Source of the DNA: Bacteroidales bacterium
GTDB taxonomy: Bacteria; Bacteroidota; Bacteroidia; Bacteroidales; F082
Reading direction: 5' to 3'
Assembly (NCBI GenBank): GCA_015493525.1
Contig: WGCY01000005.1
Coordinates: forward strand, 1 to 44,613
DNA length: 44,613 nucleotides
Shown: positions 554 through 38,749 of the stretch, in pieces
Position numbering within the stretch: position 1 is the first letter of the stretch
Layout: every line of letters begins with the position of its first letter
The notes under the pieces: generated by a model
Databases searched by the model: none
The model's input: the letters and a program-made list of their open reading frames with translations, nothing else
Told to the model about the DNA's origin: nothing
Program-made: the position numbers and the translations under genes

Positions 554-595
554 ACTTTTCACTTTCAACTTTAGCCTTTATACTTTAGCCTTCCC
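554..595. repeat. Degenerate heptamer tandem array
   Basis: Six 7-base units fill the gap upstream of the four-helix-bundle gene: ACTTTTC, ACTTTCA, ACTTTAG, CCTTTAT, ACTTTAG, CCTTCCC. Read on the minus strand they are of the same AAAGTnA type as the arrays at 5261 and 5706. Confidence 0.55.
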
Positions 596-662
596 AAAGC
601 AAATGCAAAGCTTTTAGTTTTTAAAATATTTTCTTTCGCCATTTTTCGTTTTTAACTTTTCA

Positions 663-1916
663 TTAACCCAACAGCCATTTCCATACCGGCATAATGGTAA
701 TTTCTCCGGGAATCTGATTTTCTTTTATCTCTTTATCATAATAGAGCAACCATCCGGTTGAGAGGCCGTAATTTTTCATGGCTTCAAGAAGCCCGCCGGT
801 TTCCCTTTCAAAATTCTCATTATTTAACAAATAAGTAACCTGGACAGCCTCTGTGATATGGAGCCCCTGTTTGATTACGAAATCGCATTCTCCTTTGCCG
901 GAATAATAATAGATTTCCTTTTTTCTGCGTTTTAACTCGAGGAAAACAATATTTTCGAGTACCCGGCCTTTGTTGGCCGAAAAGTTAAAACCAATTTTAT
1001 GTATAAACCCCTGGTCAACTGTGAAAACTTTTCGCGGATTTAAAGTTTGTTTTTTTAATGAGAAATCGAATTTATTCAGATAATAAAACAGGTAAGCATG
1101 TGCATAGTAACCCAAATAGCTCTTAATACTGCTGAGGCTTTTAACGGAAGATACCGTTTGTAATGTTGAGTAGGAAAACTTTTTAGCGATATTCGACAGA
1201 AAATAGATTCCGATTTGTTTGATCTCGTCCACCTGGCCCAAACGATAACGGGCTATAATATCCCGGTACAAAATATCCTGAAAATAGCCGGTCAATATTT
1301 CAGGGTCGTTTTCTTTTACAGCCAAAGGGAAGCCGCCTTCCGACATAAAGGCATCAAAAGCACCCGTGATTTGCAAACGTTTTTTCATTGAGAGGTGTTC
1401 AACCCCGGCAGGTATGCTTTTAAACCGCAAATATTCGTTGAAAGAAAAAGGCATCAGTTCCAGCACTTTGTTCCTGCCGGTGAGGCTGGTGGCAATTTCG
1501 GAGCTGAGTATGGAGGCATTGGAACCGGTAACAAAAATCTTCCTGCCCTGTTCATATAGGCGGTTTACAAATTTTTCCCATCCGGTAATATCTTGTATTT
1601 CATCGAAAAACAAGGCCGGCTCTTTACCGTATATCTCTTTGTGCAGGTTATCAATACTTTCCAACAGGGAAACATCGTTAACAATCCTTTCGTCATCGAA
1701 GTTGAAATAACAAAAGCCGCTTTCATCAAGCTGCATTTTTTCCTTTATCAGAAAAAGCAGGGAAGATTTTCCGCAGCGGCGAACGCCTGTAATAATAACC
1801 ACCAAAGCGGTTTTTATGGCATCCTCCAGGGGGATGTCCCTGTCTATCAGGCCTGTTTTGGCAGAAAAGACCTCTTTCTGGTCCAACAGTATTTCAGTGA
1901 GGCGTTCTTTGTTCAT
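663..1916 (-). CDS. ATP-binding protein with C-terminal DUF4143 domain
   Basis: This 417-residue P-loop ATPase has a Walker A motif GVRRCGKSS at about residues 44-52, Walker B ALFFDEI at 101-107 and a sensor-like VTGSNAS after it. The C-terminal third fits DUF4143, which has a nuclease-like fold; ENIVFLELKRR, GECDFVI and EAVQV lie where its E-D-EVK-like residues are expected. These AAA-type proteins are common, mobile and of unknown target in bacteria and archaea. It is full length. The gene lies at the downstream end of the polysaccharide locus but probably has its own control, since a perfect palindrome sits 9 bp before its ATG. It is probably an accessory gene, not part of polysaccharide synthesis. 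Confidence 0.85.
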   Translation of the reverse strand: MNKERLTEILLDQKEVFSAKTGLIDRDIPLEDAIKTALVVIITGVRRCGKSSLLFLIKEKMQLDESGFCYFNFDDERIVNDVSLLESIDNLHKEIYGKEPALFFDEIQDITGWEKFVNRLYEQGRKIFVTGSNASILSSEIATSLTGRNKVLELMPFSFNEYLRFKSIPAGVEHLSMKKRLQITGAFDAFMSEGGFPLAVKENDPEILTGYFQDILYRDIIARYRLGQVDEIKQIGIYFLSNIAKKFSYSTLQTVSSVKSLSSIKSYLGYYAHAYLFYYLNKFDFSLKKQTLNPRKVFTVDQGFIHKIGFNFSANKGRVLENIVFLELKRRKKEIYYYSGKGECDFVIKQGLHITEAVQVTYLLNNENFERETGGLLEAMKNYGLSTGWLLYYDKEIKENQIPGEITIMPVWKWLLG

Positions 1917-1924
1917 GACATTAT

Positions 1925-1981
1925 CTTTCGTTATAAACGAAAGGTTTTTATATTTATTGTTCTTTTAGAACGAAAGGTTTT
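1925..1981. promoter_or_regulatory. Palindrome plus direct repeat upstream of the DUF4143 ATPase
   Basis: A perfect 8-bp inverted repeat CTTTCGTT-ATA-AACGAAAG spans 1925-1943, nine bases before the ATPase start codon. The right arm with its flank (AACGAAAGGTTTT) recurs at 1969-1981, 33 bp away, about three helical turns. A second small palindrome GTTCT-TTT-AGAAC overlaps it. The layout fits an operator or a translational control hairpin; no regulator is identified. Confidence 0.5.
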
Positions 1982-2416
1982 AGGGATTGCTTCACGCTGG
2001 CACACATTTCCGGCCCACTGTGCTCGTACCATAGGCACTCCCCTGGAGCAATGACGTGAGGGGAGTAATAAGCTCTGAAGCATCCGTATGCAGCACCAAT
2101 GAAAAGAACACTGGAGGGGCAAGTGCCTTCTTGGGAGATTCTTCACTTGCTCCCCGGAAGTCTTGCGCCGGTCCGTTTTCCAAAGGCCCATAGGGCTCCT
2201 TTGGAGAGTCCTTCGGACAGAATGACAAACACAAGGCTGTCATTTCGATCCGCCGGAGGCGGAGAGAAATCACCTGAGAACCAGAAAGCACTGCCGGGAA
2301 AAGGCCGCTGAAGGAGCAACTTCTTTCGGAGGGGATTTCTCGGTGCTTCGCTTCCCTCGAAATGACAAAACAAGCGAAATGACAGGATAAAATCAAGAAA
2401 CTCCTTCATAAAATGA
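1982..2416. repeat. Gene-free, hairpin-rich dispersed-repeat region
   Basis: About 430 bp without a credible gene. It contains several inverted repeats: ACTCCCCT/AGGGGAGT (2037-2044 and 2059-2066), a CCAAAGG/CCTTTGG pair near 2180-2205, and an outer pair CTGTCATTTCG (2237-2247) with CGAAATGACAG (2375-2385) that encloses GAGAAATC and GATTTCTC segments. A related unit occurs at 14390. The short ORFs that can be drawn through it follow the repeat and look non-coding. Confidence 0.6.
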
Positions 2417-3790
2417 TTACAGCTTAAACACTTTCTCCCCTTTTTCCTTTACCATGTTCCGCAAGTCCACAATCAGCCGGGCGTGTTCTTTAATAAACTC
2501 AACATCAAAATCTTTGTGGTTGGTGGTGAGAACTACGCAGTCGGCATTTTTTAATGTTTCTTCTGTTAATTCCACGGCATCGAAAGTCCTACCGCCGGGG
2601 GTGTGGGTATGCGGAATAAAGGGATCATGATAGGAAACCAGGCCGCCTTTGTGGGCCGTTATATCCATGATTTCCAACGCCGGGGATTCTCTCGAATCAT
2701 CTATATCGGGCTTGTAAGCCACGCCAAGGAAGAGGATTTTGCTACCGTTGACTGCTTTCTTCTGGCTGTTGAGGGCCGTGGCAATCTTGATGTACATATA
2801 ATGCGGCATCCGCATGTTGATGTGGCCGGCGGTATGAATCATGCTCAGATCAAAATCGTACTGTTTGGCAATGTGCTCCAGATAAAAGGGATCCAGCGGA
2901 ATGCAATGGCCACCGATACCGGGACCGGGATAGAAAGCCTGAAAGCCGAAGGGCTTGGTTTTGGCGGCTTCGATGACCTCCCAGATGTTGATATGCATTT
3001 TTCCCGAAAGCAGGGCCAACTCGTTAATCAGGCTAATGTTCACCAGCCGGTAGGTGTTTTCCAGGATTTTCACCATTTCGGCTACACGGGGGGAGCTGAC
3101 CTTGTGGATGTTGTCGATGGCTTTTTTGTACAGTGCTTCGCCGATTTCATAACCCTCTTCCGTCAGGGCACCCATTACCTTGGGAGTGTTGCGGGTGTGA
3201 AAGTTTTTGTTGCCGGGGTCCACCCGCTCGGGGGAATAGGCCAGCCAGAAATCCTTGCCGTGGCTAAAGCCACTGGATGTTTGATGTTTGATGTTTGATG
3301 TTTGATGTTGGGGACTAGCAAGTGGGTTCTGTTTTGAGGACTCCTCAATGAGGGGAAGCATGAAGTTCTCCGTGGTGGTGGGATAGGTGGTGCTTTCGAG
3401 GCTGATGAAAGTTCCTGTACTCATGTTACGGCCAATATCGGTACAGGCACTTTCGATGTAGCTCATATCGGGTTTGCGGAATTTGTCCAGCGGCGTGGGA
3501 ACGCAGATAATCAGGGCATCGCACGCTGCCATTTGGGAAAAATCCGTCGTGGCTTTCAGGTTGACCTTGTTCACCACTTCGCGCAAAACGGCATCGCGAA
3601 TGTCGCCGATGTAGTTTTCGCCTTTGTTGATTTTATCAACTTTTTCTTTGCTTTTGTCAAAGCCGATAACGTGGACGCCTGCTTCGGCAAAATTCACCGC
3701 CAGCGGCAGGCCCACATAACCCAGGCCGATGATACCGACGGTCTCGGAGTTGTTTTTAATTTTTTCTAAAAGAATTTGTGTGTTGTTCAT
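2417..3790 (-). CDS. Nucleotide-sugar dehydrogenase (UDP-GlcNAc/ManNAc 6-dehydrogenase type)
   Basis: It should oxidise the C6 hydroxyl of a UDP-sugar to a carboxylate in two NAD+-dependent steps, giving a uronic acid for surface polysaccharide. The N-terminal Rossmann motif GLGYVG (about residues 22-27), FAYSPERV-type segment (AYSPERVDPGN, 184-194) and the catalytic cysteine in GIGGHCIPLDP (Cys296) are present, as is the C-terminal domain (LGVAYKPDIDDSRESPA). ATG at 3788-3790 is preferred over an upstream TTG. The protein carries about 25 extra residues at 152-178, partly coded by a 7-base tandem repeat and showing a 7-residue period (HQTSNIK). The insertion lies in a loop just before AYSPERV. 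Substrate choice (GlcNAc, ManNAc or Glc) cannot be read from sequence. Confidence 0.9.
   Translation of the reverse strand: MNNTQILLEKIKNNSETVGIIGLGYVGLPLAVNFAEAGVHVIGFDKSKEKVDKINKGENYIGDIRDAVLREVVNKVNLKATTDFSQMAACDALIICVPTPLDKFRKPDMSYIESACTDIGRNMSTGTFISLESTTYPTTTENFMLPLIEESSKQNPLASPQHQTSNIKHQTSSGFSHGKDFWLAYSPERVDPGNKNFHTRNTPKVMGALTEEGYEIGEALYKKAIDNIHKVSSPRVAEMVKILENTYRLVNISLINELALLSGKMHINIWEVIEAAKTKPFGFQAFYPGPGIGGHCIPLDPFYLEHIAKQYDFDLSMIHTAGHINMRMPHYMYIKIATALNSQKKAVNGSKILFLGVAYKPDIDDSRESPALEIMDITAHKGGLVSYHDPFIPHTHTPGGRTFDAVELTEETLKNADCVVLTTNHKDFDVEFIKEHARLIVDLRNMVKEKGEKVFKL
3276..3309. repeat. Perfect heptamer repeat (GATGTTT) inside a coding sequence
   Basis: Four perfect GATGTTT units and six bases of a fifth lie within the nucleotide-sugar dehydrogenase gene. 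Loss or gain of one unit would shift the reading frame; three units make 21 nt and keep it. This is the most perfect of the heptamer arrays, the class most prone to slippage. Confidence 0.9.
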
Positions 3791-26229: not shown

Positions 26230-26237
26230 TACCTTTG
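26230..26237 (+). promoter_or_regulatory. polA: TAnnTTTG -7 box of polA
   Basis: TACCTTTG lies 18 bp before the polA ATG at 26256, which implies a very short leader. No TTG is present at 19-bp spacing. Confidence 0.4.
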
Positions 26238-26255
26238 CTTTTTAATCAGAAACTT

Positions 26256-29015
26256 ATGAGCCAACCGAAAAAGCTTTTTCTCCTCGATGCCATGGCACTG
26301 ATTTACCGGGCCTATTTTGCCATGAGCCGGAACCCGCAAATCAATTCCAAAGGGCTGAACACCTCTGCCGTGTTGGGGTTTGCCAATACACTGCTGGAGA
26401 TATTAAAAAATGAAAAGCCTACACATATCGGGGTGGCCTTTGACACTATGGCCCCTACACAACGGCACGAAGACTTTGCCGCTTACAAAGCCAACCGCGA
26501 GAAAATGCCCGAAGACCTTGCCGCTTCCATCCCTTACGTGAAAGAGCTGCTCGATGCGCTGAATATCCCGGTCCTGTATGTGGATGGTTACGAAGCGGAT
26601 GATGTGATAGGGACCCTTGCCAAAAAAGCGGAAAAGCATGGTTTTGAAACTTATATGATGACCCCTGACAAAGATTTCGGGCAACTGGTCTCGGAGAATA
26701 TTTTTATGTATAAACCGGCCCGTGGTGGAAAAAATGCAGAAAAATGGGGGCCGAAAGAGGTGTGTGCACGCTATGGCATTGAACGGCCCGAACAGTTTAT
26801 CGATATTCTCGGCCTCTGGGGCGATGCCGTGGACAACATCCCGGGTGTCCCCGGCATAGGCGAAAAAACGGCTGCAAAACTCATTGCACAATTTGGCTCC
26901 ATCGAAAACCTGCTGAAGAACACCCATCAGCTGAAAGGAAAACTTCGCGAGAACCTGGAGAAATTTTCAGAGCAAGCCATTATTTCCAAACAACTGGCAA
27001 CCATTCTGCTCGATGTGCCCATCGCCTTTGAAGAGGAGAAGTTGTTGCTGGGCAACCCCCATCGCGATGCTCTAAAAAAACTTTTTGACGAACTGGAATT
27101 CCGCACTTTTGCCAAACGGTTTTTTACCTGGCTCTCCTTACGCCAGCCGGAAGGAAATTACGAGCAGGGCGCGCTTTTTACAGAACCTGAAACGGAGGAG
27201 ATAAAGACAATTTATAACACCGCTCATCAATACCACCTCGCAGATACTCCCGAAAAAGCAAAAACACTGGCCAAAGAACTCAAAAAGCTGAAATCGTTTT
27301 GTTTCGATACGGAAACAACCGGTGTGGACCCCAACAATGCCGAACTGGTGGGCATCTCTTTTGCCTGGAAGGCACATGAGGCCTGGTATATGCCTTTTGA
27401 TGAGAATTACCATCATGCTACGCAGCAATTGTCTGTTTTTAAAGATGTTCTGGAAGATGAAAAGATTGAGAAAACAGGCCAAAACATAAAATTTGATATT
27501 TCCATATTGCGATGGTACGATATTGTGGTGAAAGGAAAAATCTTTGATACCATGATTGCACATTACCTGTTGGAGCCTGACAAGCGGCATAATATGGATG
27601 CACTGGCCGAGACTTATCTGCATTACAAACCTGTTCCCATCGAAAACCTCATCGGGAAAAAAGGGAAAAACCAGCGAAGCATGCGGACTGTAGCAATAGA
27701 TGAACTGAAAGAATATGCTGCCGAAGATGCAGATGTTACCTTGCAACTCAGGGAAGTTTTTGAGCCGAAGCTAAAAGAAACCGGTACCGAGAAACTTTTT
27801 TATGAAACCGAAATGCCACTGGTGCCTGTCTTGGCGGCCATGGAAGCCGAAGGTGTAAAACTGGACACGGAAACACTCGCTGTTTTCGGTAAAGAACTAA
27901 CATCGGAAATTGCAGAACGGGAAAATGAGATTTATGAAATGGCCGGCATAAAGTTTAATATTGCCTCGCCCAAGCAGCTTGGGGAAGTTTTGTTTGAACG
28001 GCTCCGGCTTTCCGAAAAACCCAAAAAGACCAAAACCGGCCAATATTCCACCGGCGAAGAGGTATTGACAAAACTGGCTTACCGGCATCCGATTGTGGAA
28101 AAAATCCTGGAATACCGCTCACTGACCAAGCTCAAATCGACCTATGTGGACAGTCTGCCCAAGCTGGTTAAAGAACGCGATGGCCGCATACACACATCGT
28201 ATAACCAGGCTGTTGCCGCCACCGGACGACTTAGCTCCAACAATCCCAACCTGCAAAATATTCCCATTCGTACGCCGCGCGGACGAGAAATCAGAAAAGC
28301 TTTTGTCCCGCGAAACAAAGAGTATGTCCTGCTTGCCGCCGATTATTCTCAAATAGAGTTGCGCATCATCGCCCACCTGAGCAGGGACGAAGCCATGATG
28401 GAAGCTTTCCGCAAAGGACTGGATGTTCATACGGCAACGGCATCGCGGGTTTATGGCGTTCCCCTGAATGAGGTGTCCAAAGAGATGCGCCGCCATGCCA
28501 AAACGGTAAACTTTGGCATCATCTATGGCATCTCTGCTTTCGGCCTTTCAGAGAGGTTAAAAATACCCCGGCGCGAAGCAGCTGAAATCATACAAAATTA
28601 TTTTGAGAAATATCCGGGAATTCGCCGCTACATGGACAAGACCATCGAATTTGCCCGCGAACACGGATATGTGGAAACCATTCTCGGCCGGCGGCGTTAC
28701 CTGAACGACATCCGGTCGGCCAACGGCGTGGTGCGTGCCTATGCCGAGCGAAATGCCATCAATGCACCCATTCAGGGTTCTTCAGCCGATATGATTAAAA
28801 TAGCCATGATCCGCATATTCAAAGAGATGCAACAACGTAACATGAAATCGAAGATGATTTTGCAGGTGCACGATGAACTGGTTTTCGACACACACAAAGA
28901 GGAAGTGGATGCACTGAAACTGCTGGTCGATGATAAAATGAAAAACGCCTTGCCGCTGGATGTCCCCGTATTGGTAGACATCAATACCGGAAACAACTGG
29001 CTGGAAGCGCATTAA
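26256..29015 (+). CDS. polA: DNA polymerase I
   Basis: A 919-residue protein with three activities. The 5' nuclease domain (1-290) has LFLLDAMALIYRAYF, DGYEADDVIGTLAK and TPDKDFGQL. The proofreading domain starts near 347 with FDTETTGVDP (Asp351, Glu353), so the exonuclease appears active. The polymerase domain has ATGRLSSNNPNLQNIP, DYSQIELRIIAHLSRD (motif A) and QVHDELVFD (motif C). ATG at 26256 is chosen over a TTG 21 bases upstream. The AMP-ligase/GNAT gene follows after 26 bp, probably in one operon. Confidence 0.97.
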   Translation: MSQPKKLFLLDAMALIYRAYFAMSRNPQINSKGLNTSAVLGFANTLLEILKNEKPTHIGVAFDTMAPTQRHEDFAAYKANREKMPEDLAASIPYVKELLDALNIPVLYVDGYEADDVIGTLAKKAEKHGFETYMMTPDKDFGQLVSENIFMYKPARGGKNAEKWGPKEVCARYGIERPEQFIDILGLWGDAVDNIPGVPGIGEKTAAKLIAQFGSIENLLKNTHQLKGKLRENLEKFSEQAIISKQLATILLDVPIAFEEEKLLLGNPHRDALKKLFDELEFRTFAKRFFTWLSLRQPEGNYEQGALFTEPETEEIKTIYNTAHQYHLADTPEKAKTLAKELKKLKSFCFDTETTGVDPNNAELVGISFAWKAHEAWYMPFDENYHHATQQLSVFKDVLEDEKIEKTGQNIKFDISILRWYDIVVKGKIFDTMIAHYLLEPDKRHNMDALAETYLHYKPVPIENLIGKKGKNQRSMRTVAIDELKEYAAEDADVTLQLREVFEPKLKETGTEKLFYETEMPLVPVLAAMEAEGVKLDTETLAVFGKELTSEIAERENEIYEMAGIKFNIASPKQLGEVLFERLRLSEKPKKTKTGQYSTGEEVLTKLAYRHPIVEKILEYRSLTKLKSTYVDSLPKLVKERDGRIHTSYNQAVAATGRLSSNNPNLQNIPIRTPRGREIRKAFVPRNKEYVLLAADYSQIELRIIAHLSRDEAMMEAFRKGLDVHTATASRVYGVPLNEVSKEMRRHAKTVNFGIIYGISAFGLSERLKIPRREAAEIIQNYFEKYPGIRRYMDKTIEFAREHGYVETILGRRRYLNDIRSANGVVRAYAERNAINAPIQGSSADMIKIAMIRIFKEMQQRNMKSKMILQVHDELVFDTHKEEVDALKLLVDDKMKNALPLDVPVLVDINTGNNWLEAH

Positions 29016-29041: not shown

Positions 29042-32000
29042 ATGAAAAACCTACTGTTGCAAATAGAGAACCTGGTCCATAAAAAAGACAGCCATTTTCT
29101 GGCCGATTTTGTGTTGGAAGAATTCGATAAGATTGAGCAATCCCAGGTTATTACAAACAAGGAATACTTTCGTTTTTTAGACCTGACTGCCCACAAAACC
29201 TTTCTGTCCAAATTGTCGTCGGACGAAAAAAGGACATGCTGGGCCGAAACAGTCTTTGGCATCTTACAGAAAACCGGTTATGGCCTGAAAGAGATGATGG
29301 GGCAAAGGGTTGATGAGCATCCGGACAAAACGCTTTTTGTCAACCTTACGGAAGGGCGCAAAGAGCGTTTCAGCTACCTGCAGATTTTTCATTACGCCCG
29401 TGAGGTGGCCGCCACATTCTATGCCATGGAAAAAGTCCCCCGCGTGGCTGTCTTTTCGGCTAATTCGGTGGACAGTGCCACAGTCGACCTGGCCTGCCTC
29501 ATGTACGGCATCTTCGATACGCCGCTCAACATCCATTTCTCTGAGAAAATCCTGGCCGATATTTTTAAAAAACTCGGCATCAACATCGTGGTAACGGATA
29601 CGCTGGACAGAATCCTGCACCTGAAACGGGTTAAAGAGGAATACGGACTGAAATTTTCCCTGCTGGTCAGCCAGAATATCGAAGAGGCAAAAACAGAAAT
29701 CCTTCAGAAAAAAGCCAAAGAGCTGAATTACAAGGAGGTGGATACTATCCTAAAAAAATGTCCCCGGCGCAGGCCCGACGAAGTGGCTACCACCATGTTT
29801 ACCTCGGGCAGCACAGGCATTCCCAAAGGCGTTTCTTTTTCCTATTACAACCTTATTGCCAAACGTTTTGCACGCCATGCGGCACTTCCCGAAACCGGCA
29901 ACGAAACCATGCTCTGCTTTCTGCCGCTTTTTCATACTTTCGGCCGCTATCTCGAATTGATGGGTTCCGTCTATTGGCACGGAACCTACGTTTTTGTGGG
30001 GAATACCTCTTCCGATACGCTGCTCAAACTGTTTCCCGAACTAAATCCCACCGGTTTTATCAGCGTGCCCATTCGCTGGATGCAGCTTTTTGAAAAAGCC
30101 ATGAAACGGTTGGACAATATTACCAACGAAGGGCTACGGAAAGAAATCTTTCGTAAGAAAGTGGTTGGCAACAGATTACACTGGGGACTGTCGGCTGCCG
30201 GATACCTGAGCCCGAAAATTTTCCGATTTTTCCATGAACAGGGCGTTGAATTGTGCAGCGGCTTTGGCATGACAGAGGCCACGGGCGGTATCACCATGAC
30301 CCCTCCGGGCGAATACGTGGACAACTCTACCGGAAAAGCCTTGCCCGGCGTCTATACAAGACTGGGGGAAAACGGAGAACTGGAAATAAGCGGGCATTAT
30401 ATCGCCCGATACCTCGAAGATGCACCGCCCGAAAGCACCATTCCTTTTCCTTCCAAAAACCCGGACGAAAACTACTGGTTGCCCACCGGTGATATTTTCA
30501 CCATTTCTCCGGATGGCCATCACGAAATTGTGGACCGTGTAAAAGACATTTATAAAAACAACAAAGGACAGACCATTGCCCCGCGGACCATCGAACAAAA
30601 ATTCAATGGCGTACCGGGCGTAAAACATGCTTTTTTGGTGGGAGATGCCCGCCCGTACAATGTTTTGCTGATAGTTCCCGATACGGACGACATGGTAGTA
30701 AAATCGCAAAACAACCCGGAAAGCCTGCACAAATATTTCCATCAAATCGTGCAAACTGCCAACCACGGCGTAGCACCTTACGAACGGGTAGTGAATTTCT
30801 CGGTCTTAAACCGGACCTTCTCCGAAAAGAGAAAAGAGCTGACACCCAAAGGCTCGTTTAACCGAAAAAATATTGAAAAGAACTTTGCCGATACCATCAA
30901 ATTACTTTACCGTTCGGATAAAATTAATTTCAAAGTGGGGGAACTTGAAGTACAAATTCCCCGTTGGTTTTACCGGGATCTGGAATTGTTGGAAGATGAT
31001 ATTTACTACAAAGACAATTATTTCATCAGCAAGTCCAATGGGAAGAGGCTTTTTTTCAAGCCGGTAGCGGATGACCGGTGCGTTATTGGTGATTTCTCCT
31101 ACCGGATAAAAAGCCATCAGCTTAACCTCGGACGGCTGGCGTTGCAACCACTTTTGTGGATGGGAAATGCACAGTTTATCAGTTTCAGTCCGGTAAAAGA
31201 GGGGTGGGATTTGCCCATGAAAGAATTTTCGGCACAAATCTGCTATCCATCGTGTGTAAAAACAGATGTTAAAAAACAAACCATTGTTTCCATACCCACT
31301 ATCGGCAACAGCATGCTTGTTTTTATCAATGGACTGATTACAGACGCGCTTTTCTCAAAAGGTGAGAAACAGGTACAATCCATTAAAACACTGGGGGAAC
31401 AGCTGGCCGGGTCGCAGCGAAGGATAGCCCTGGCCATACGCCGCCGGCTGGAAGCACTGGCCTGTCATCGCGAACATCGCATCAGGGCACTGGCTTACCA
31501 AAGCCTGTTGATTTACGATCCAAACACTGATTATCAGGAGGTCCTGCCTGTTTTTGTCCGGTCGGGGAAAACTTTTCTCGACAGCAAAACCATTGAAGCT
31601 ATTGCTGAAAGCAGTCTGGGAAAACAACAGTTGGCAGCCTTTCGGAACCGGCTGTTTGCTTATCGCAAAAATATGGAATGGCCGGCCAACGGAACCACCC
31701 GCAAGCAGTTTGAGGATATGCTGGAACTGCTTTTCAATTTTGGGAAACAACATCCACATTATTATAAATCCATCCGTGCCGAGTTTGCCGCCTGGGCTTT
31801 GCACAAAAAAGACAACTACCTGTCGGGGCTGGCAAAGAAATATTTCCATGAACTCTATCTTGTTTTTGATAAAGAGATGTGGACTCTGCGCGGACATTTA
31901 CCTGAAAAATTTTGGGAGAACATCATCGTTTTTGAGTATGGAATCCCCGCCAACCAAAAGCGCAGGTTACAACGGATTATTACCGACACTGTTTTTCTCG

Positions 32001-33616
32001 AAGAATCAATCCATTTGATTTTCGGGCAAACCACTTTCACGGTGGACAAAATCATTCAGGAAGGCCTTTGGATTACCAAATTACAATCGTTTTCCGATTT
32101 CCGGCATTACCGGCTCACGGTCAACACGGTCAACAACAAACATTACGATCTGCATCTGGTGGTTACGAGAAATGAAAATTCAAAAGACAGTGTTTCCGAT
32201 CTGTACTGGAATGCTTATCTTTCGGATTATCCGTTCGATTTGCCGGTACTCTCTTCGCTGGGCATCAGCAACAGGGAGCATGGCGTTCGTTCCAGCCAAT
32301 ATCTTGGCGGGTTGCGTGTTTGGGAAAAGATCAGACAGATGTCAGAGATTCACCAGTGGGCGGGAAACTCACAACCGTATGCCTGGCACCAGCTTTTTAT
32401 TAAGTCCTTTGCCGTGGTCTTTCGGACATGGAAAATCAGCCGCCGTAAAATTATCCCTGGGGCCATCTCACCGCGAAATATCATGGTTCCCGAATTGGAT
32501 TTTAAAGAGAGTGCGTCCATTATTTCTTTGACGGGCTATACGCTGTACGATAATATCCAAAGCCTTTTGATGCCCATGATAAAGAATTTCTACCAGAAAA
32601 CCGTGGCACTTTATCCCTGGGGCGGCTCCCACCTGAAATTCAACTGGATATACAAAGCCATGGTGGAAGCCCTTGGGAAAAAAGAGACTTTTGAACTATT
32701 GGAAGAGTGGCGTGAATTTCTGCACAAAACAAACGACCATTATCTGAAATCGCTGCCACTGGAGGCTTCTATCGATGAATTTATTGCTGAACAAAAAGAC
32801 AAACATTACTATCCGCTGAAGATACACAGTGCCATCTCCAACTACGAACAATGGCTGAAACTGAATCCCGATGCCACCCGCGAAGCACGGGAACAAACTG
32901 TGTATGAAATTTACGATCTGTTTAAAATTTTTAAGCTTGACGAAATAAACCGTTTTTATTTTTACCTGCATACCTATTATAGCCATGCCGAAAGGCGGGT
33001 ACGGGAAGCTTTTGGGGAACTGTTGACAAAACTGGAGGAAAAACCGGAGACAGAAACAATTCAGCTCATTGAACTGTCCGACCTGCAAGCCACGCTGGAA
33101 CATCCTGTGGACCGCCGAATCTTTAGCAAAATGGTTTTCCCCAAGATGAAACATTATCAGGAAATGGACTTTGTGAAAGTAACGAACAAAAACAAGGAAC
33201 AGGTTATAGTACAAACACTTATCAAAGACAAAAGCGGGCTGACGTATACCATGCGTGAACCGCGCGATGCCACAGAAGTAGGTAAACTGTATCAGCTTTT
33301 TTACGAGGAAAATTATCCCAAAACCGTTTCACAGCAGGACAAATATTTTGTGGTAACCGATAAATATGAACGCGTAATTGGCGGTATCAGCTACCGGACG
33401 CTGGAAAACAATATTGTGCGCCTCGATGGTACAGCCGTTACCAGTCCGTTGCAGGGAAAAGGGATAGGTTCTGCCATGATCAACGACTTTTTTACACGTA
33501 TGGCTGCCAAAGATGTGGCCATTATCAAAGCCCATTACCTGCTGGGAAACTATTTCCTGAAACACAACTTTAAAGTGGATAAAAAATGGGGTGCCCTGGT
33601 AAAACACCTCGACTGA
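29042..33616 (+). CDS. Giant AMP-ligase / unassigned middle / GNAT acetyltransferase fusion
   Basis: This 1,524-residue protein is the longest here. Residues about 80-615 are an ANL-type adenylating domain: P-loop FTSGSTGIPKG (253-263), A5 GFGMTEATGG (407-416), A7 TGD (482-484) and A8 DRVKDIYKNNKGQ (498-510); the wording is closest to long-chain acyl-CoA synthetases. The A10 region is ELTPKGSFNRKNI (599-611), without a lysine at the expected place. Residues about 640-1390 are unassigned; 780-870 look helical and HEAT-like, and GAISPRNIMV (1140-1149) recalls an APH-type kinase loop lacking its aspartate. Residues about 1402-1524 are a GNAT domain with acetyl-CoA loop QGKGIGSAM (1471-1479). Function is unknown; acylation or protein/lipid acetylation are guesses. 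It lies 26 bp behind polA and has no stop or frameshift. Confidence 0.75.
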   Translation: MKNLLLQIENLVHKKDSHFLADFVLEEFDKIEQSQVITNKEYFRFLDLTAHKTFLSKLSSDEKRTCWAETVFGILQKTGYGLKEMMGQRVDEHPDKTLFVNLTEGRKERFSYLQIFHYAREVAATFYAMEKVPRVAVFSANSVDSATVDLACLMYGIFDTPLNIHFSEKILADIFKKLGINIVVTDTLDRILHLKRVKEEYGLKFSLLVSQNIEEAKTEILQKKAKELNYKEVDTILKKCPRRRPDEVATTMFTSGSTGIPKGVSFSYYNLIAKRFARHAALPETGNETMLCFLPLFHTFGRYLELMGSVYWHGTYVFVGNTSSDTLLKLFPELNPTGFISVPIRWMQLFEKAMKRLDNITNEGLRKEIFRKKVVGNRLHWGLSAAGYLSPKIFRFFHEQGVELCSGFGMTEATGGITMTPPGEYVDNSTGKALPGVYTRLGENGELEISGHYIARYLEDAPPESTIPFPSKNPDENYWLPTGDIFTISPDGHHEIVDRVKDIYKNNKGQTIAPRTIEQKFNGVPGVKHAFLVGDARPYNVLLIVPDTDDMVVKSQNNPESLHKYFHQIVQTANHGVAPYERVVNFSVLNRTFSEKRKELTPKGSFNRKNIEKNFADTIKLLYRSDKINFKVGELEVQIPRWFYRDLELLEDDIYYKDNYFISKSNGKRLFFKPVADDRCVIGDFSYRIKSHQLNLGRLALQPLLWMGNAQFISFSPVKEGWDLPMKEFSAQICYPSCVKTDVKKQTIVSIPTIGNSMLVFINGLITDALFSKGEKQVQSIKTLGEQLAGSQRRIALAIRRRLEALACHREHRIRALAYQSLLIYDPNTDYQEVLPVFVRSGKTFLDSKTIEAIAESSLGKQQLAAFRNRLFAYRKNMEWPANGTTRKQFEDMLELLFNFGKQHPHYYKSIRAEFAAWALHKKDNYLSGLAKKYFHELYLVFDKEMWTLRGHLPEKFWENIIVFEYGIPANQKRRLQRIITDTVFLEESIHLIFGQTTFTVDKIIQEGLWITKLQSFSDFRHYRLTVNTVNNKHYDLHLVVTRNENSKDSVSDLYWNAYLSDYPFDLPVLSSLGISNREHGVRSSQYLGGLRVWEKIRQMSEIHQWAGNSQPYAWHQLFIKSFAVVFRTWKISRRKIIPGAISPRNIMVPELDFKESASIISLTGYTLYDNIQSLLMPMIKNFYQKTVALYPWGGSHLKFNWIYKAMVEALGKKETFELLEEWREFLHKTNDHYLKSLPLEASIDEFIAEQKDKHYYPLKIHSAISNYEQWLKLNPDATREAREQTVYEIYDLFKIFKLDEINRFYFYLHTYYSHAERRVREAFGELLTKLEEKPETETIQLIELSDLQATLEHPVDRRIFSKMVFPKMKHYQEMDFVKVTNKNKEQVIVQTLIKDKSGLTYTMREPRDATEVGKLYQLFYEENYPKTVSQQDKYFVVTDKYERVIGGISYRTLENNIVRLDGTAVTSPLQGKGIGSAMINDFFTRMAAKDVAIIKAHYLLGNYFLKHNFKVDKKWGALVKHLD

Positions 33617-33631
33617 GGAAAAGAATATTGT

Positions 33632-33701
33632 AGCCTCACCAGGACTCGAACCTGGATCTAGAGTTTAGGAAACTCCTATTCTATCCCTTGAACTATGAGG
33701 C
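33632..33701 (-). tRNA. tRNA-Arg (anticodon CCU)
   Basis: The minus strand folds to a cloverleaf: acceptor GCCTCAT with GTGAGGC (one G-T), anticodon arm GGAGT-TTCCTAA-ACTCT with anticodon CCT, T arm CCAGG-TTCGAGT-CCTGG. No CCA is encoded. It reads AGG codons. It lies between the ligase/GNAT gene and pgk. Confidence 0.92.
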
Positions 33702-33752
33702 CGTAAAATAACGGGCTGCAAATTTACAACTTTTTTGAAATCGAAATTTGTC

Positions 33753-33773
33753 GCCTCACCAGGACTCGAACCT
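33753..33773 (-). pseudogene. 3' remnant of a tRNA-Arg copy (21 nt)
   Basis: Exactly 21 bases are identical to the tRNA 3' part (33633-33653), 120 bp away in the same orientation: the whole 3' acceptor strand and most of the T arm. The 5' half that should continue the tRNA is absent and the T stem is broken. It is upstream of the intact tRNA in transcription. Confidence 0.75.
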
Positions 33774-35186: not shown

Positions 35187-35888
35187 TCAATGTTCGTTAT
35201 TTTCTTCCAGCTTTACCCCAAAGATAATTTCAAATTCTTCCCTGAAATAACGCTTTACTTCCTCTATGTCAACCTTTCGGTTAAGTTCTTTCTGTAAGGA
35301 TGTTGTCCCTTTGTCTTTAAACCCACAGGGATGGATATGTCTAAAATAATCGAGGTTAGTGTTCACATTAAGTGCAAAGCCGTGCATACTCACTTTGTTG
35401 TGGACACGCATGCCGATAGCGGCAATTTTTCGTTCTTTCCCTTTTACCCCGGCATCGAGCCAAACGCCGGTAGCGTGTTCCAATCTTGCCCCATGCAGCC
35501 CGAAATGTTTTATGGTGCGGATGAGGACGGCTTCCAGATCGAAAATAAACTCTTTAACGGAAATATTAAAGTTGTCCACATCAAAAATCGGGTAGCCCAC
35601 CAGTTGTCCCGGCCCGTGATATGTTATGTCGCCGCCGCGGTCGGTTTGGTAAAAAGCAACCCCGTTTTCTTTCAGCCATTGGTCATCGACCAGCAGGTTT
35701 TGCCTGTTACCGCTATTGCCAAGCGTGAAAACATGCGGATGCTCACAGAAAATCAGATAATTGGATGTTGTAAGCCCTTTCTGTTTGGCCTCAAGTATTT
35801 TGTCAAAAACTTTTTTCTGATATGCCAGGGCCTCGGCATAATCAGTCAATCCCAAGTCGAGGAAGTTAACAAGTAAATTTTTTCCCAT
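35187..35888 (-). CDS. lipB: Octanoyltransferase LipB
   Basis: A 233-residue cytoplasmic enzyme that moves octanoyl from ACP to lipoyl domains of 2-oxoacid dehydrogenases or GcvH. HPHVFTLGNSG, RGGDITYHGPGQLVGYPIFD (the conserved loop) and the catalytic pair Lys (RKIAAIG) and Cys (HPCGF) are present. It starts 2 bp after lipA ends, so the two form an operon, lipA first. Confidence 0.95.
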   Translation of the reverse strand: MGKNLLVNFLDLGLTDYAEALAYQKKVFDKILEAKQKGLTTSNYLIFCEHPHVFTLGNSGNRQNLLVDDQWLKENGVAFYQTDRGGDITYHGPGQLVGYPIFDVDNFNISVKEFIFDLEAVLIRTIKHFGLHGARLEHATGVWLDAGVKGKERKIAAIGMRVHNKVSMHGFALNVNTNLDYFRHIHPCGFKDKGTTSLQKELNRKVDIEEVKRYFREEFEIIFGVKLEENNEH

Positions 35889-35890
35889 TT

Positions 35891-36763
35891 TTAATGTGGC
35901 TTTGGCGTTAGCACATGTTTTTCGGCGTGATAGGACGATCTCACCAGCGGACTGCTTTCCACAAACCGGAAGCCTTTTTCTAATCCTACGCGCTCATATT
36001 CTTTAAATTGTTCGGGGGTTACATATTCTTTTACGGGAAGATGCTTTCGGGTCGGTTGCAGGTATTGTCCAATGGTAAGTACCGTAACGCCTGCAGAACG
36101 TAAATCGTCCATAAGCTCAAAAACCTCTTCCCGTGTTTCGCCCAGGCCGGCAATAATCCCTGATTTGGCTATAGTTCCCGCATCGGCAATGTATTTGAGT
36201 ACTTTCAGGCTGCGGTCGTATTTGGCGCGGCTTCGTGTGTAAGGCGTCATGCGGCGAACAGTCTCCAGGTTGTGCGAAATCACTTCCGGGGCAGCATCAA
36301 TCACCTGCTGGATAAGTTCCTCGCGGCCATCAAAATCGGGGATAAGCGTTTCGATGGTCGTCTGCGGACAAAGTGCTTTAATTTCCCGAATGACAGATGC
36401 CCACACAGACGCACCGCCATCTTTCAGGTCATCGCGGTCAACCGAGGTGAGCACAGCATGTTTCAACCCCATAAGTTTTATCGACTCCGCCACCCGTTTT
36501 GGCTCTTCGGGGTCAACGGGCAACGGCTTACCCGTGATGACGTTGCAGAATTTGCAGGAACGCGTGCAAATATCGCCGAGGATCATAAATGTGGCTGTTC
36601 CCCGGCCCCAGCATTCGTGCATGTTGGGACAATGTCCGCTGGTACAAATGGTATGCAGCTTGTGTTCGGCAATAATGTCCTTTACCGCAATAAATTCTTT
36701 GCCGGAGGGGACTTTTATCTTTAACCAGTCCGGTTTTCTGAGTATGGTATCCGTATTTTTCAT
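35891..36763 (-). CDS. lipA: Lipoyl synthase
   Basis: This 290-residue radical SAM enzyme inserts two sulfurs into octanoyl groups. ATG at 36761-36763 is preferred over an upstream TTG. The auxiliary cluster motif C-x4-C-x5-C is CTSGHCPNMHEC, the SAM cluster is CTRSCKFC, and the C-terminal RSSY motif (VRSSYHAEKH) is present. It is divergent from the pbp2-rodA operon; a TAGTTTTG box at 36782-36789 probably drives lipA-lipB. Confidence 0.97.
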   Translation of the reverse strand: MKNTDTILRKPDWLKIKVPSGKEFIAVKDIIAEHKLHTICTSGHCPNMHECWGRGTATFMILGDICTRSCKFCNVITGKPLPVDPEEPKRVAESIKLMGLKHAVLTSVDRDDLKDGGASVWASVIREIKALCPQTTIETLIPDFDGREELIQQVIDAAPEVISHNLETVRRMTPYTRSRAKYDRSLKVLKYIADAGTIAKSGIIAGLGETREEVFELMDDLRSAGVTVLTIGQYLQPTRKHLPVKEYVTPEQFKEYERVGLEKGFRFVESSPLVRSSYHAEKHVLTPKPH

Positions 36764-36781
36764 TACAATGTTTTCAGCGTG

Positions 36782-36789
36782 CAAAACTA
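36782..36789 (-). promoter_or_regulatory. lipA: TAnnTTTG -7 box of lipA-lipB
   Basis: TAGTTTTG on the minus strand, 19 bp before the lipA ATG, implying a short leader. Confidence 0.4.
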
Positions 36790-36870
36790 AACAAATTGGA
36801 GGTATGGTATTCTCTGTTTTCAGGCTGAATTTCTTTTTTTGATAAGGGGGTTTCCTGCTTTATATTTTTC

Positions 36871-36878
36871 TACTTTTG
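36871..36878 (+). promoter_or_regulatory. mrdA: TAnnTTTG -7 box of pbp2-rodA
   Basis: TACTTTTG lies 36 bp before the ATG at 36914. A TTT is near the -33 position but no TTG. Confidence 0.4.
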
Positions 36879-36913
36879 TGGTGGGATCTCACAATAATTT
36901 CTCATATTATTTC

Positions 36914-38749
36914 ATGTACAGAAAGGACTATTCAGCAAGGAAATATATAATCATGGCCGGCTTTGTTCTTGTGGCCGTCATTTTTCTTGTGCGTCTTTTT
37001 TATCTTCAGGTTTTTACCGACCAGTACCGGCTTTCTGCGCATGACATTGCTTTGCGCCGGGTGGTTGAATATCCGGCCCGCGGACGTATTTACGACCGGA
37101 ACCACAAACTGCTGGTATATAACGATGCCGTGTACGATTTAATGGTCATCCCCCGGCAGGTAAAGCAACTGGATACTGCTAAATTTTGCGCTTTGCTGGA
37201 GATTGACAAAGCATTCTTTAAAAAAAGAATGAAAAAAGCCAGGCAATATTCCTACTATAAACCCTCTGTATTTTTAAAACAGCTTTCAAAACCAGAAAAA
37301 GGGCCTATTGAAGAAGTTATGTACGAGTTCCCCGGCTTTTATTTCCAAACAAGGACATTGCGCCATTATCCGCAACCCATTGCAGCCCATGTGCTGGGAA
37401 GTGTGGGAGAAGTCAGCCCGGGCAATCTCAAACGGGATGCTTATTACCGGCAGGGCGATTATATCGGGAAATCGGGCATGGAATGGTTTTACGAAAAAGA
37501 GTTGAGGGGGCGGAAAGGCTCGCGGCTGGTGGAGGTGGATGTCCATAACAATGTGAAAGGGAGCTTCCAAAATGGGAAATTCGACACCCTTGCCGTTTCC
37601 GGTGCCGACCTCACACTGAGCCTTGACGAAAAGCTACAGGCCTATGCACAGCTCCTAATGAACAATAAAAAAGGAAGTATTGTGGCCATTCAGCCCCGGA
37701 CAGGCCAGATACTGGCATTTATCAGCAGCCCTACTTATGATCCCAACCTGCTTGTCGGGCGTAAGCGTTCGGCAAATTACAACATGCTTTTTCACGACTC
37801 ACTTAGGCCGTTGATGGACAGGGCTTCTGCAGGGACTTACCCTCCCGGTTCCACTTTTAAACTGGTGCAGGCCCTCATAGCTTTGCAAGACCACGTGGTT
37901 TCAACGCATACTGTTTTTACCTGTCAGGGGACTGCTTCAAAACCGATAGCCTGCGCCGAGGATCATGTGTCCCCGCTGGATATGAAAATGGCAATCGAAC
38001 TTTCCTGTAATACCTATTTCTGGAAAACCTTTCGTGCCATTATCAACAACCCGAAATATGCCAACACCCACGATGCTTATGAAGCCTGGTACAAAGAAGT
38101 GCTGCTTTTTGGTTTCGGCCATCGGTTCAACACAGACATTCCATCCGAAAGGCCGGGCAATATTCCTTCGCGTGCCTATTTTAACAAACTCTATCGCGGA
38201 AGCTGGAACGCATTGACTATACGCTCTTTAAGTATCGGACAGGGAGAAGTTCTGGTTACCCCCGTTCAACTGGCCAACCTGGCGGCCATCATCGCCAACG
38301 GTGGTTATTACGTGAAGCCACATTTTTTGACGGGCATGTCGGGCGATGATACCCTTTCGGGAAGATATACCAAGAAATTTTATATCCATAATATTGATCC
38401 TGCCTACTTCAGGTTTGCCAAGCAGGCCATGAACGCAGTTTTTGACGGGCCAAAAGGTACCGCACGGGCATATCGGATGGACAGTATTTCGCAAGCCGGA
38501 AAAACAGGAACGGCACAAAATCCGCACGGGAAAGACCACTCAATATTTATGGCTTTTGCACCGGTGAAAGACCCGAAAATTGCCATTGCCGTAGTGATTG
38601 AAAATGCCGGATACGGAGCTGCCTGGGCAGCACCCGTGGCCAGCCTGATGATAGAGAAATACCTGCGCGGATATACCAAACGGCCACGGCTGGAAAAACG
38701 GATTATCCATGCTGACCTGATTCATAATTCAAAACACAAAAGGCGATGA
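36914..38749 (+). CDS. mrdA: Penicillin-binding protein 2 (elongasome transpeptidase)
   Basis: A 611-residue inner-membrane protein with one N-terminal helix (YIIMAGFVLVAVIFLVRLFYL). It crosslinks peptidoglycan during lateral growth. The dimerisation domain has RGRIYDRN; the transpeptidase has S-T-F-K (Ser313, Lys316), SCNTYFW (SxN) and KTG in AGKTGTAQNP. The ATG at 36914 is chosen over a TTG 75 bases upstream because it gives the expected short cytoplasmic tail. It overlaps rodA by four bases (ATGA), so translation is coupled. mreBCD, usually just upstream, is not present. Confidence 0.95.
   Translation: MYRKDYSARKYIIMAGFVLVAVIFLVRLFYLQVFTDQYRLSAHDIALRRVVEYPARGRIYDRNHKLLVYNDAVYDLMVIPRQVKQLDTAKFCALLEIDKAFFKKRMKKARQYSYYKPSVFLKQLSKPEKGPIEEVMYEFPGFYFQTRTLRHYPQPIAAHVLGSVGEVSPGNLKRDAYYRQGDYIGKSGMEWFYEKELRGRKGSRLVEVDVHNNVKGSFQNGKFDTLAVSGADLTLSLDEKLQAYAQLLMNNKKGSIVAIQPRTGQILAFISSPTYDPNLLVGRKRSANYNMLFHDSLRPLMDRASAGTYPPGSTFKLVQALIALQDHVVSTHTVFTCQGTASKPIACAEDHVSPLDMKMAIELSCNTYFWKTFRAIINNPKYANTHDAYEAWYKEVLLFGFGHRFNTDIPSERPGNIPSRAYFNKLYRGSWNALTIRSLSIGQGEVLVTPVQLANLAAIIANGGYYVKPHFLTGMSGDDTLSGRYTKKFYIHNIDPAYFRFAKQAMNAVFDGPKGTARAYRMDSISQAGKTGTAQNPHGKDHSIFMAFAPVKDPKIAIAVVIENAGYGAAWAAPVASLMIEKYLRGYTKRPRLEKRIIHADLIHNSKHKRR

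Follow-up and report, generated by a model that had tools for sequence, protein, structure and literature searches.

A bacterial protein joining an acid-activating ligase, a kinase fold and a GNAT domain, with a possible role at the entry to the citric acid cycle

Introduction

What does a single protein do with an acid-activating enzyme at one end and an acyltransferase at the other? The question is raised by a gene in the window (here, the whole 44,613-nucleotide stretch of Bacteroidales DNA that was analysed). The gene occupies positions 29042–33616 (+): a single unbroken frame of 1524 amino acids (aa), running from the ATG at 29042 to the stop codon at 33616. The original prediction, made from the sequence letters, described an AMP ligase joined to a GNAT acetyltransferase by about 750 unassigned residues, beside polA. 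Two questions follow: whether the two ends truly belong together, and what they would act upon.

Results

The ligase part

The chain is organised as ligase, beta domain, helical solenoid, pseudokinase, helical region and GNAT domain, an architecture that is well supported. The long frame does read as a real protein, with 1524 aa and no stop, and the predicted AMP ligase is borne out at its N-terminus. An AMP-binding (adenylating) domain spans aa 89–448 (29306–30385, +; Pfam E 6.6e-50), with the P-loop TSG and an F408-G409-M-T-E motif; its PF00501 score of 170.4 bits, against a curated cut-off of 29.9, places it among the class I adenylate-forming acyl-CoA synthetase domains. The ligase C-terminal domain, AMP-binding_C_3, follows at aa 508–625 (30563–30916, +; Pfam E 1.4e-13). 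The best 25 NCBIfam models listed are all ligase or related adenylation models, every one below its own cut-off; the nearest, long-chain CoA ligase PRK06187 and FadD11, are far below theirs. Across the family, the ligase motifs are invariant: in an alignment of 108 rows, including four duplicate pairs, TSG is found in 106/106 rows with a letter, TGD in 107/107, and the DR of DR..K in 107/107.

Two further positions bear on ligase function. Firstly, Gly409 (102/102 rows) stands at the place of acetyl-CoA synthetase Trp414. According to the portion of PMC6122825 drawn on here, Trp414 at the acyl pocket marks acetyl-CoA synthetases, while its replacement marks enzymes for longer acids; because Gly409 replaces Trp414, the alignment points to longer acyl groups as the ligase substrate. 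Acetate is made unlikely by the same residue, the tryptophan of the short-chain acetyl-CoA synthetases being absent. Secondly, the A10 catalytic lysine, reported in that portion of PMC6122825 as fully conserved in the superfamily, is displaced. The gap-free A10 lysine column (aa 605) holds S or T in 103/103 rows, and an invariant lysine, K603 (30848–30850, +; 103/103 de-duplicated rows with a letter), lies two residues earlier. Own-genome paralogues L004 and L007 have K at the A10 column (seven own-genome paralogue loci were entered in this alignment, with usable ligase frames only from L004, L006 and L007). Judged from the alignment, the displaced lysine could mean weak adenylation.

The GNAT domain

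The C-terminal GNAT of the original prediction was likewise recovered. The domain covers aa 1402–1524 (33245–33613, +), with a Pfam Acetyltransf_1 match at aa 1425–1492 (E 2.1e-5; 25.2 bits against a cut-off of 20.7). It has both the GNAT fold, matching GCN5 in structure, and the acyl-CoA loop (L-Q-G-K-G-I-G), whose glycine, G1474, is kept in 98/102 rows. GCN5-type lysine acetyltransferases carry their catalytic glutamate on strand 4. In a hand alignment, D/E1462 (conserved in 98/102 rows) falls two residues beyond that glutamate, and is only a candidate for the catalytic base. Because ArgA (5yge) is among the GNAT structure matches at tied Z, a small-molecule acceptor is also possible for the modelled domain.

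A kinase fold between the two enzymes

No Pfam family exceeds its curated cut-off at aa 626–1424 of the window protein, and on that ground the middle was rejected as a named repeat or domain. Structural modelling divides it, by AlphaFold2 for the first two parts, into (i) a beta-rich domain at aa 625–740 (30914–31261, +), (ii) a helical solenoid-like region at aa 757–983 (31310–31990, +), (iii) a protein-kinase fold at aa 1004–1235 (32051–32746, +), and (iv) a C-terminal helical region at aa 1240–1365 (32759–33136, +). We are confident of the predicted kinase fold. The original caveat that the middle might prove to be a well-known domain has come half true: part of it takes a kinase fold, which structure alone reveals.

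The fold is there, but the residues of an active protein kinase are not, making it a pseudokinase. With columns placed by eye, the window protein carries A1141 at the catalytic-loop Asp position (in PGAISPRN, aa 1139–1146; 32456–32479, +) and S1162 at the DFG Asp position, while the catalytic-loop Asn (N1146) is kept in 100/103 rows. Across the family, in columns placed the same way, the catalytic-loop Asp occurs in 6/104 rows and the DFG-Asp column is S or T in 102/103. The six Asp-bearing proteins (L049, L051, L054, L058, L060 and L063) are distant members that lack the DFG Asp and all sit in the branch other than the window's; by these columns, the label 'dead kinase' is less sure for them than for the rest.

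A Foldseek search with a 900-residue model gave weak matches to the VPS34-type 2x6f_B (E 1.9e-4) and to Tra1 (7yfn_T; E 4.1e-3), over 606 columns. Judged from that number of columns, the VPS34-type matches appear to come from the solenoid together with the kinase part. A PI3K/PIKK origin, taken from this first list, was demoted once the kinase part was folded alone: no PI3K/PIKK is among the 50 VIA matches listed for it. Pfam gives scattered weak matches in the kinase part, in other members only. A profile search of aa 625–1524 against the PDB returned GNATs; it also gave weak hits, one of them a Fic protein, that we take as chance.

Conservation and distribution of the family

Contig ends and one broken frame apart, the ligase and GNAT parts were never seen split; homologues in the form of two separate genes, which the original prediction named as evidence against itself, did not turn up. 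When family frames were scanned with six segment HMMs (built from the family members themselves), every segment was found in 117/119, and the two frames with missing segments (L142 and L174) run off contig ends. The broken frame, L081, was left out before the 119 were counted; in that contig the family gene is split over two open frames of 421 and 1142 aa. The window's own genome contains the full chain once, and 16 other matched stretches fall on the ligase part only.

A 738-aa query taken from the middle matched 7/39 relatives besides the own genome: 5/11 other genomes of the genus, 0/12 from other genera of the family, and 2/16 others in the order. A phylum sample (395 genomes, own included) yielded 20 further genomes, down to about 20% identity. 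Every middle match in these two sets sits within a frame of 1515–1638 aa. Beyond the phylum, and with seed genomes counted, 14/199 genomes matched in the phylum of a record titled Acidobacteria (L127) and 4/188 in that of a Deltaproteobacteria record (L137). An accidental joining of two adjoining genes, in the genome or in assembly, might get some colour from the patchy presence (absence from 6/11 other genus genomes and from 12/12 genomes of other family genera), but counts as already refuted by the completeness of the frames; the identical part order in members with about 15–25% identity in the middle also speaks against it.

Named genomes, scanned with an alignment as query, gave 381 candidate relatives. 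The best 80 of the 381 were kept; the other 301, among which there could be ordinary ligases, are not claimed as family. Of the best 80, 76 match over 1147 or more of the 1153 C-terminal aa, and L102, L118, L141 and L142 are cut by contig ends. The titles of the relatives' records name Bacteroidales, Ignavibacteria/Chlorobiota, Kapabacteria, Acidobacteria, Zixibacteria, Calditrichaeota, Deltaproteobacteria and others; they are mostly MAG titles and some are apparently wrong, L140 ('Gemmatimonas') and L143 ('Fibrobacter') being near-identical sisters. The locus L099, titled Alphaproteobacteria, is nearly identical to Bacteroidales L095, and its title is probably wrong. The family tree (FastTree, with long-branch warnings) has two deep branches, both represented among the complete frames, and one genome, G443, holds two copies, one from each (L137 and L176).

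polA and the surroundings of the window gene

In the window, polA (26235–29015, +) ends 26 bp before the gene, and the original prediction held that a conserved position by polA would be informative. The adjacency is particular to the window: among 120 de-duplicated loci (65 with 3.5 kb on both sides), only the window copy adjoins polA, which we accordingly rejected as a functional partner. In 20/20 distant genomes, more than 1 Mb or a contig break separates the gene from the best polA match; for G105 and G155, where the family gene is located at the end of its contig, the two could nevertheless be adjacent.

Downstream, a tRNA-Arg(CCT) gene (33630–33702, −) starts 13 bp past the stop codon. 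Near its 3' end, 21 bases (33633–33653) recur exactly 120 bp on (33753–33773), a repeat that looks like the scar of a past integration or rearrangement. Genes read by eye as lipB, lipA and penicillin-binding protein 2 lie near the gene in both the window (35187–38749) and the genus relative L018, where their order is rearranged and polA is not near the gene.

Citric-acid-cycle genes beside the family in relatives

The recurrent neighbours in relatives, identified by NCBIfam on representatives, are citrate synthase, mitochondrial-type aconitase and NADP-isocitrate dehydrogenase (IDH). Aconitase lies directly upstream in 22/120 loci and IDH directly downstream, on the same strand, in 22/120; in each case, all of the loci belong to one branch of Bacteroidales-type loci.

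An even sample of the phylum has 18 informative genomes, of which 12 have citrate synthase within 3.5 kb of the gene. All 18 have one citrate synthase match each, giving a chance expectation of about 0.3% per genome; as a control, polA of the same genomes is near citrate synthase in 0/18. Two further positives, L051 and L053, have a flank too short for this count. Over all loci, citrate synthase is within 3.5 kb in 34/74 informative ones, a count that favours positives since positive loci with a short flank were kept; with 3.5 kb on both sides the figure is 25/65, and 40/65 have no citrate synthase within that distance.

Gene arrangement matters here because related genomes are not independent. 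Of the 34 linked loci, 14 have citrate synthase in tandem upstream and four have it convergent; in 15 it is divergent and separated from the gene by aconitase (14 of these also have IDH downstream), and one pair is divergent and tight. The tandem upstream arrangement occurs in 12 genomes of the f34/f52 families, and in L072 and L102, whose citrate synthase is of another type than that of the 15 divergent loci, which are Bacteroidales-type (PRK09569 in L072 versus PRK14032 in L078, tested on those two). Convergent genes are seen in L083/L096, plus L168 and L172 in the phylum of L127; the evidence of linkage in L172 is a 53-residue terminal piece of citrate synthase where the contig breaks off. 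The divergent, tight pair is that of G443, where only the L176 copy adjoins the genome's single citrate synthase match.

Citrate synthase linkage is thus found in both deep branches, with 11 label changes by parsimony on the FastTree tree and its long-branch warnings. Within the window's large branch, it is confined to some Bacteroidales loci. In the window's own genome the two genes are not linked, the single citrate synthase match being on another contig, and we only infer the link for the window member itself. Taken together, the neighbourhood in relatives suggests that the family helps to regulate the flow of carbon into the citric acid cycle.

Other neighbours were also noted. In the genus relative L067, a PEP carboxylase gene (559–3135) lies about 0.3 kb upstream on the same strand, again at the oxaloacetate/citrate node. 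Pfam was run on ten further neighbour proteins (from L104, L112, L120, L122, L126, L127, L133, L138, L018 and L067), which, that PEP carboxylase apart, seem mutually unrelated. In several distant relatives, squalene synthesis genes lie upstream of citrate synthase: in L048 (HpnD and HpnE by NCBIfam) and in similar loci among L049–L063 (clustered by similarity). Co-occurrence with sirtuins, considered as support for reversible acylation, was uninformative: 32/32 genomes were positive, including 12 without the gene.

Discussion

The protein is real, ancient, bacterial and without a name, and carries an acid-activating enzyme, a kinase-shaped domain and an acyl-transferring domain on one chain. 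Searches of the open-access literature, outside of which most subscription papers fall, found no description of a ligase–kinase fold–GNAT architecture, in keeping with the original impression that it belongs to no named system. The accompanying idea that one chain activates and transfers, or else senses, acyl groups stands in so far as both ends are present with their binding motifs kept, and it remains the leading idea.

Our preferred reading, offered tentatively, is that of a single-chain acyl-CoA synthetase and protein acyltransferase acting where acetyl-CoA enters the citric acid cycle as citrate. Substrate, acyl donor, target and every step of the mechanism are what we infer: (i) the N-terminal AMP ligase would use ATP and CoA to activate a carboxylic acid of medium or long chain; (ii) the C-terminal GNAT would acylate protein lysines, using acyl-CoA that is either the chain's own product or cellular acetyl-CoA; and (iii) the solenoid and pseudokinase, without catalysing anything themselves, would dock the target and couple ligase to GNAT, as a scaffold or as a sensor of nucleotides. 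The first candidate targets would be citrate synthase, the gene neighbour in many relatives, and the ligase's own K603, as product feedback. Covalent metabolic control is the best reading because the ligase and GNAT are unseparated, a kinase fold lies between them, and citrate synthase is adjacent in many relatives. There are precedents in the cited parts of two sources: AcuA, a GNAT, forms a complex with the AMP-forming CoA ligase AcsA and acetylates it (PMC11255334), and Pat is a GNAT that acetylates AMP-forming CoA ligases (PMC4053389). By analogy, the window protein may do the same on one chain, and extend it to citrate synthase.

The alternative that survives best, although we hold it to be unlikely, is a biosynthetic enzyme for an N-acylated small molecule. 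Here, the ligase would make a fatty acyl-CoA, the GNAT would acylate an amino acid or amine that the citric acid cycle supplies, such as glutamate by way of isocitrate dehydrogenase, and the middle would be structural. A ligase pocket predicted for longer acids (Gly409, on the excerpted rule of PMC6122825) would suit such an enzyme, as would the tie of ArgA with GCN5 among the GNAT matches and the IDH genes directly downstream, all in one branch. However, it is citrate synthase that recurs as the partner in both branches, and, as a matter of general knowledge, a large solenoid and pseudokinase are unusual for a simple N-acyl enzyme.

We give less credence still to a self-regulating fatty acyl-CoA synthetase, in which the GNAT would only acylate the ligase's K603, in cis or in trans, when acyl-CoA is high, like a fused AcuA–AcsA or Pat–Acs, and citrate synthase linkage would reflect shared regulation. 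The invariance of K603 is consistent with this, as is its position, in the motif that in AMP-forming CoA ligases carries the lysine acetylated by GNATs (PMC4053389 and PMC11255334, in the parts cited). Against it, the canonical lysine column is S/T, acylation of K603 is putative, and the conserved solenoid, kinase fold and citrate synthase linkage would be left without explanation.

Distinctly improbable, in our view, is a sensor in which ligase and GNAT bind acyl groups as weak or dead enzymes, and the solenoid and pseudokinase relay the bound state via binding partners. The displaced A10 lysine and a kinase fold without its usual aspartates fit that picture, but the other counted ligase motifs are invariant across very distant members, which argues for catalysis.

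The reading of covalent control can be carried further, to a metabolic switch that we consider rather improbable. In it, the chain would make fatty acyl-CoA, which the GNAT would read, writing a lysine acyl mark on citrate synthase, with the kinase fold docking the target or sensing a nucleotide; the supply of acid would then determine the entry of carbon into the citric acid cycle across several bacterial phyla. If true, a switch in which fatty acyl-CoA marks citrate synthase would be a new class. As it stands, a multi-module protein that crosses phyla, with a recurrent citrate synthase link, is a testable candidate for covalent control of citric-acid-cycle entry, and provides a bacterial case of a kinase fold without the usual catalytic residues fused to an acyltransferase and an acid-activating enzyme.

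Comparison with known systems

The N-terminal 625 aa, with their core motifs, resemble long-chain acyl-CoA synthetases and the adenylation domains of carboxylic acid reductases (PF00501 with PF23562). The best PDB sequence match of the ligase part is 6oz1, an entry labelled 'Oxidoreductase'; carboxylic acid reductases, 5mso among them, rank lower. Unlike in AMP-forming long-chain acyl-CoA synthetases, the A10 lysine is displaced by two residues and 900 more residues are fused behind.

VPS34 and the PIKKs, including Tra1, combine helical and kinase domains, and resemble the window protein in Foldseek matches spanning about 600 columns. Identity is 10%, however, with an rmsd of about 18 over the whole, and the kinase part alone lists PRPK first; judged from these models, the common domain order may be convergent. 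With PRPK/Bud32 and other kinase-fold proteins, no sequence relation to the window protein was detected; unlike in PRPK/Bud32, the DFG Asp is absent, as is the catalytic Asp in all but six members.

Pairs of an acyl-CoA ligase and a lysine acyltransferase are already known; it is the single-chain architecture with a kinase fold that was not found described in the open-access literature. In Pat/PatZ, the large domain is NDP-forming acyl-CoA synthetase-like. The AcuA–AcsA complex consists of two separate proteins, AcsA being an acetyl-CoA synthetase, and to our knowledge includes neither a solenoid nor a pseudokinase. Pat-type protein acetyltransferases share with the window protein a large domain followed by a C-terminal GNAT, and the pairing of GNAT with CoA ligase (PMC4053389, in the part cited). 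Unlike Pat, the ligase here is AMP-forming and within the same chain; no NDP-forming ligase-like family was found by Pfam in the window protein (E up to 1) or in six members (E up to 0.01), and membership of the Pat group, whose large domain was not found here, is not claimed. The Bacillus subtilis AcuA–AcsA complex is alike in that a GNAT is held on an AMP-forming CoA ligase (PMC11255334, as excerpted); unlike that complex, the window protein is a single chain, with a solenoid and a pseudokinase between its two enzymes.
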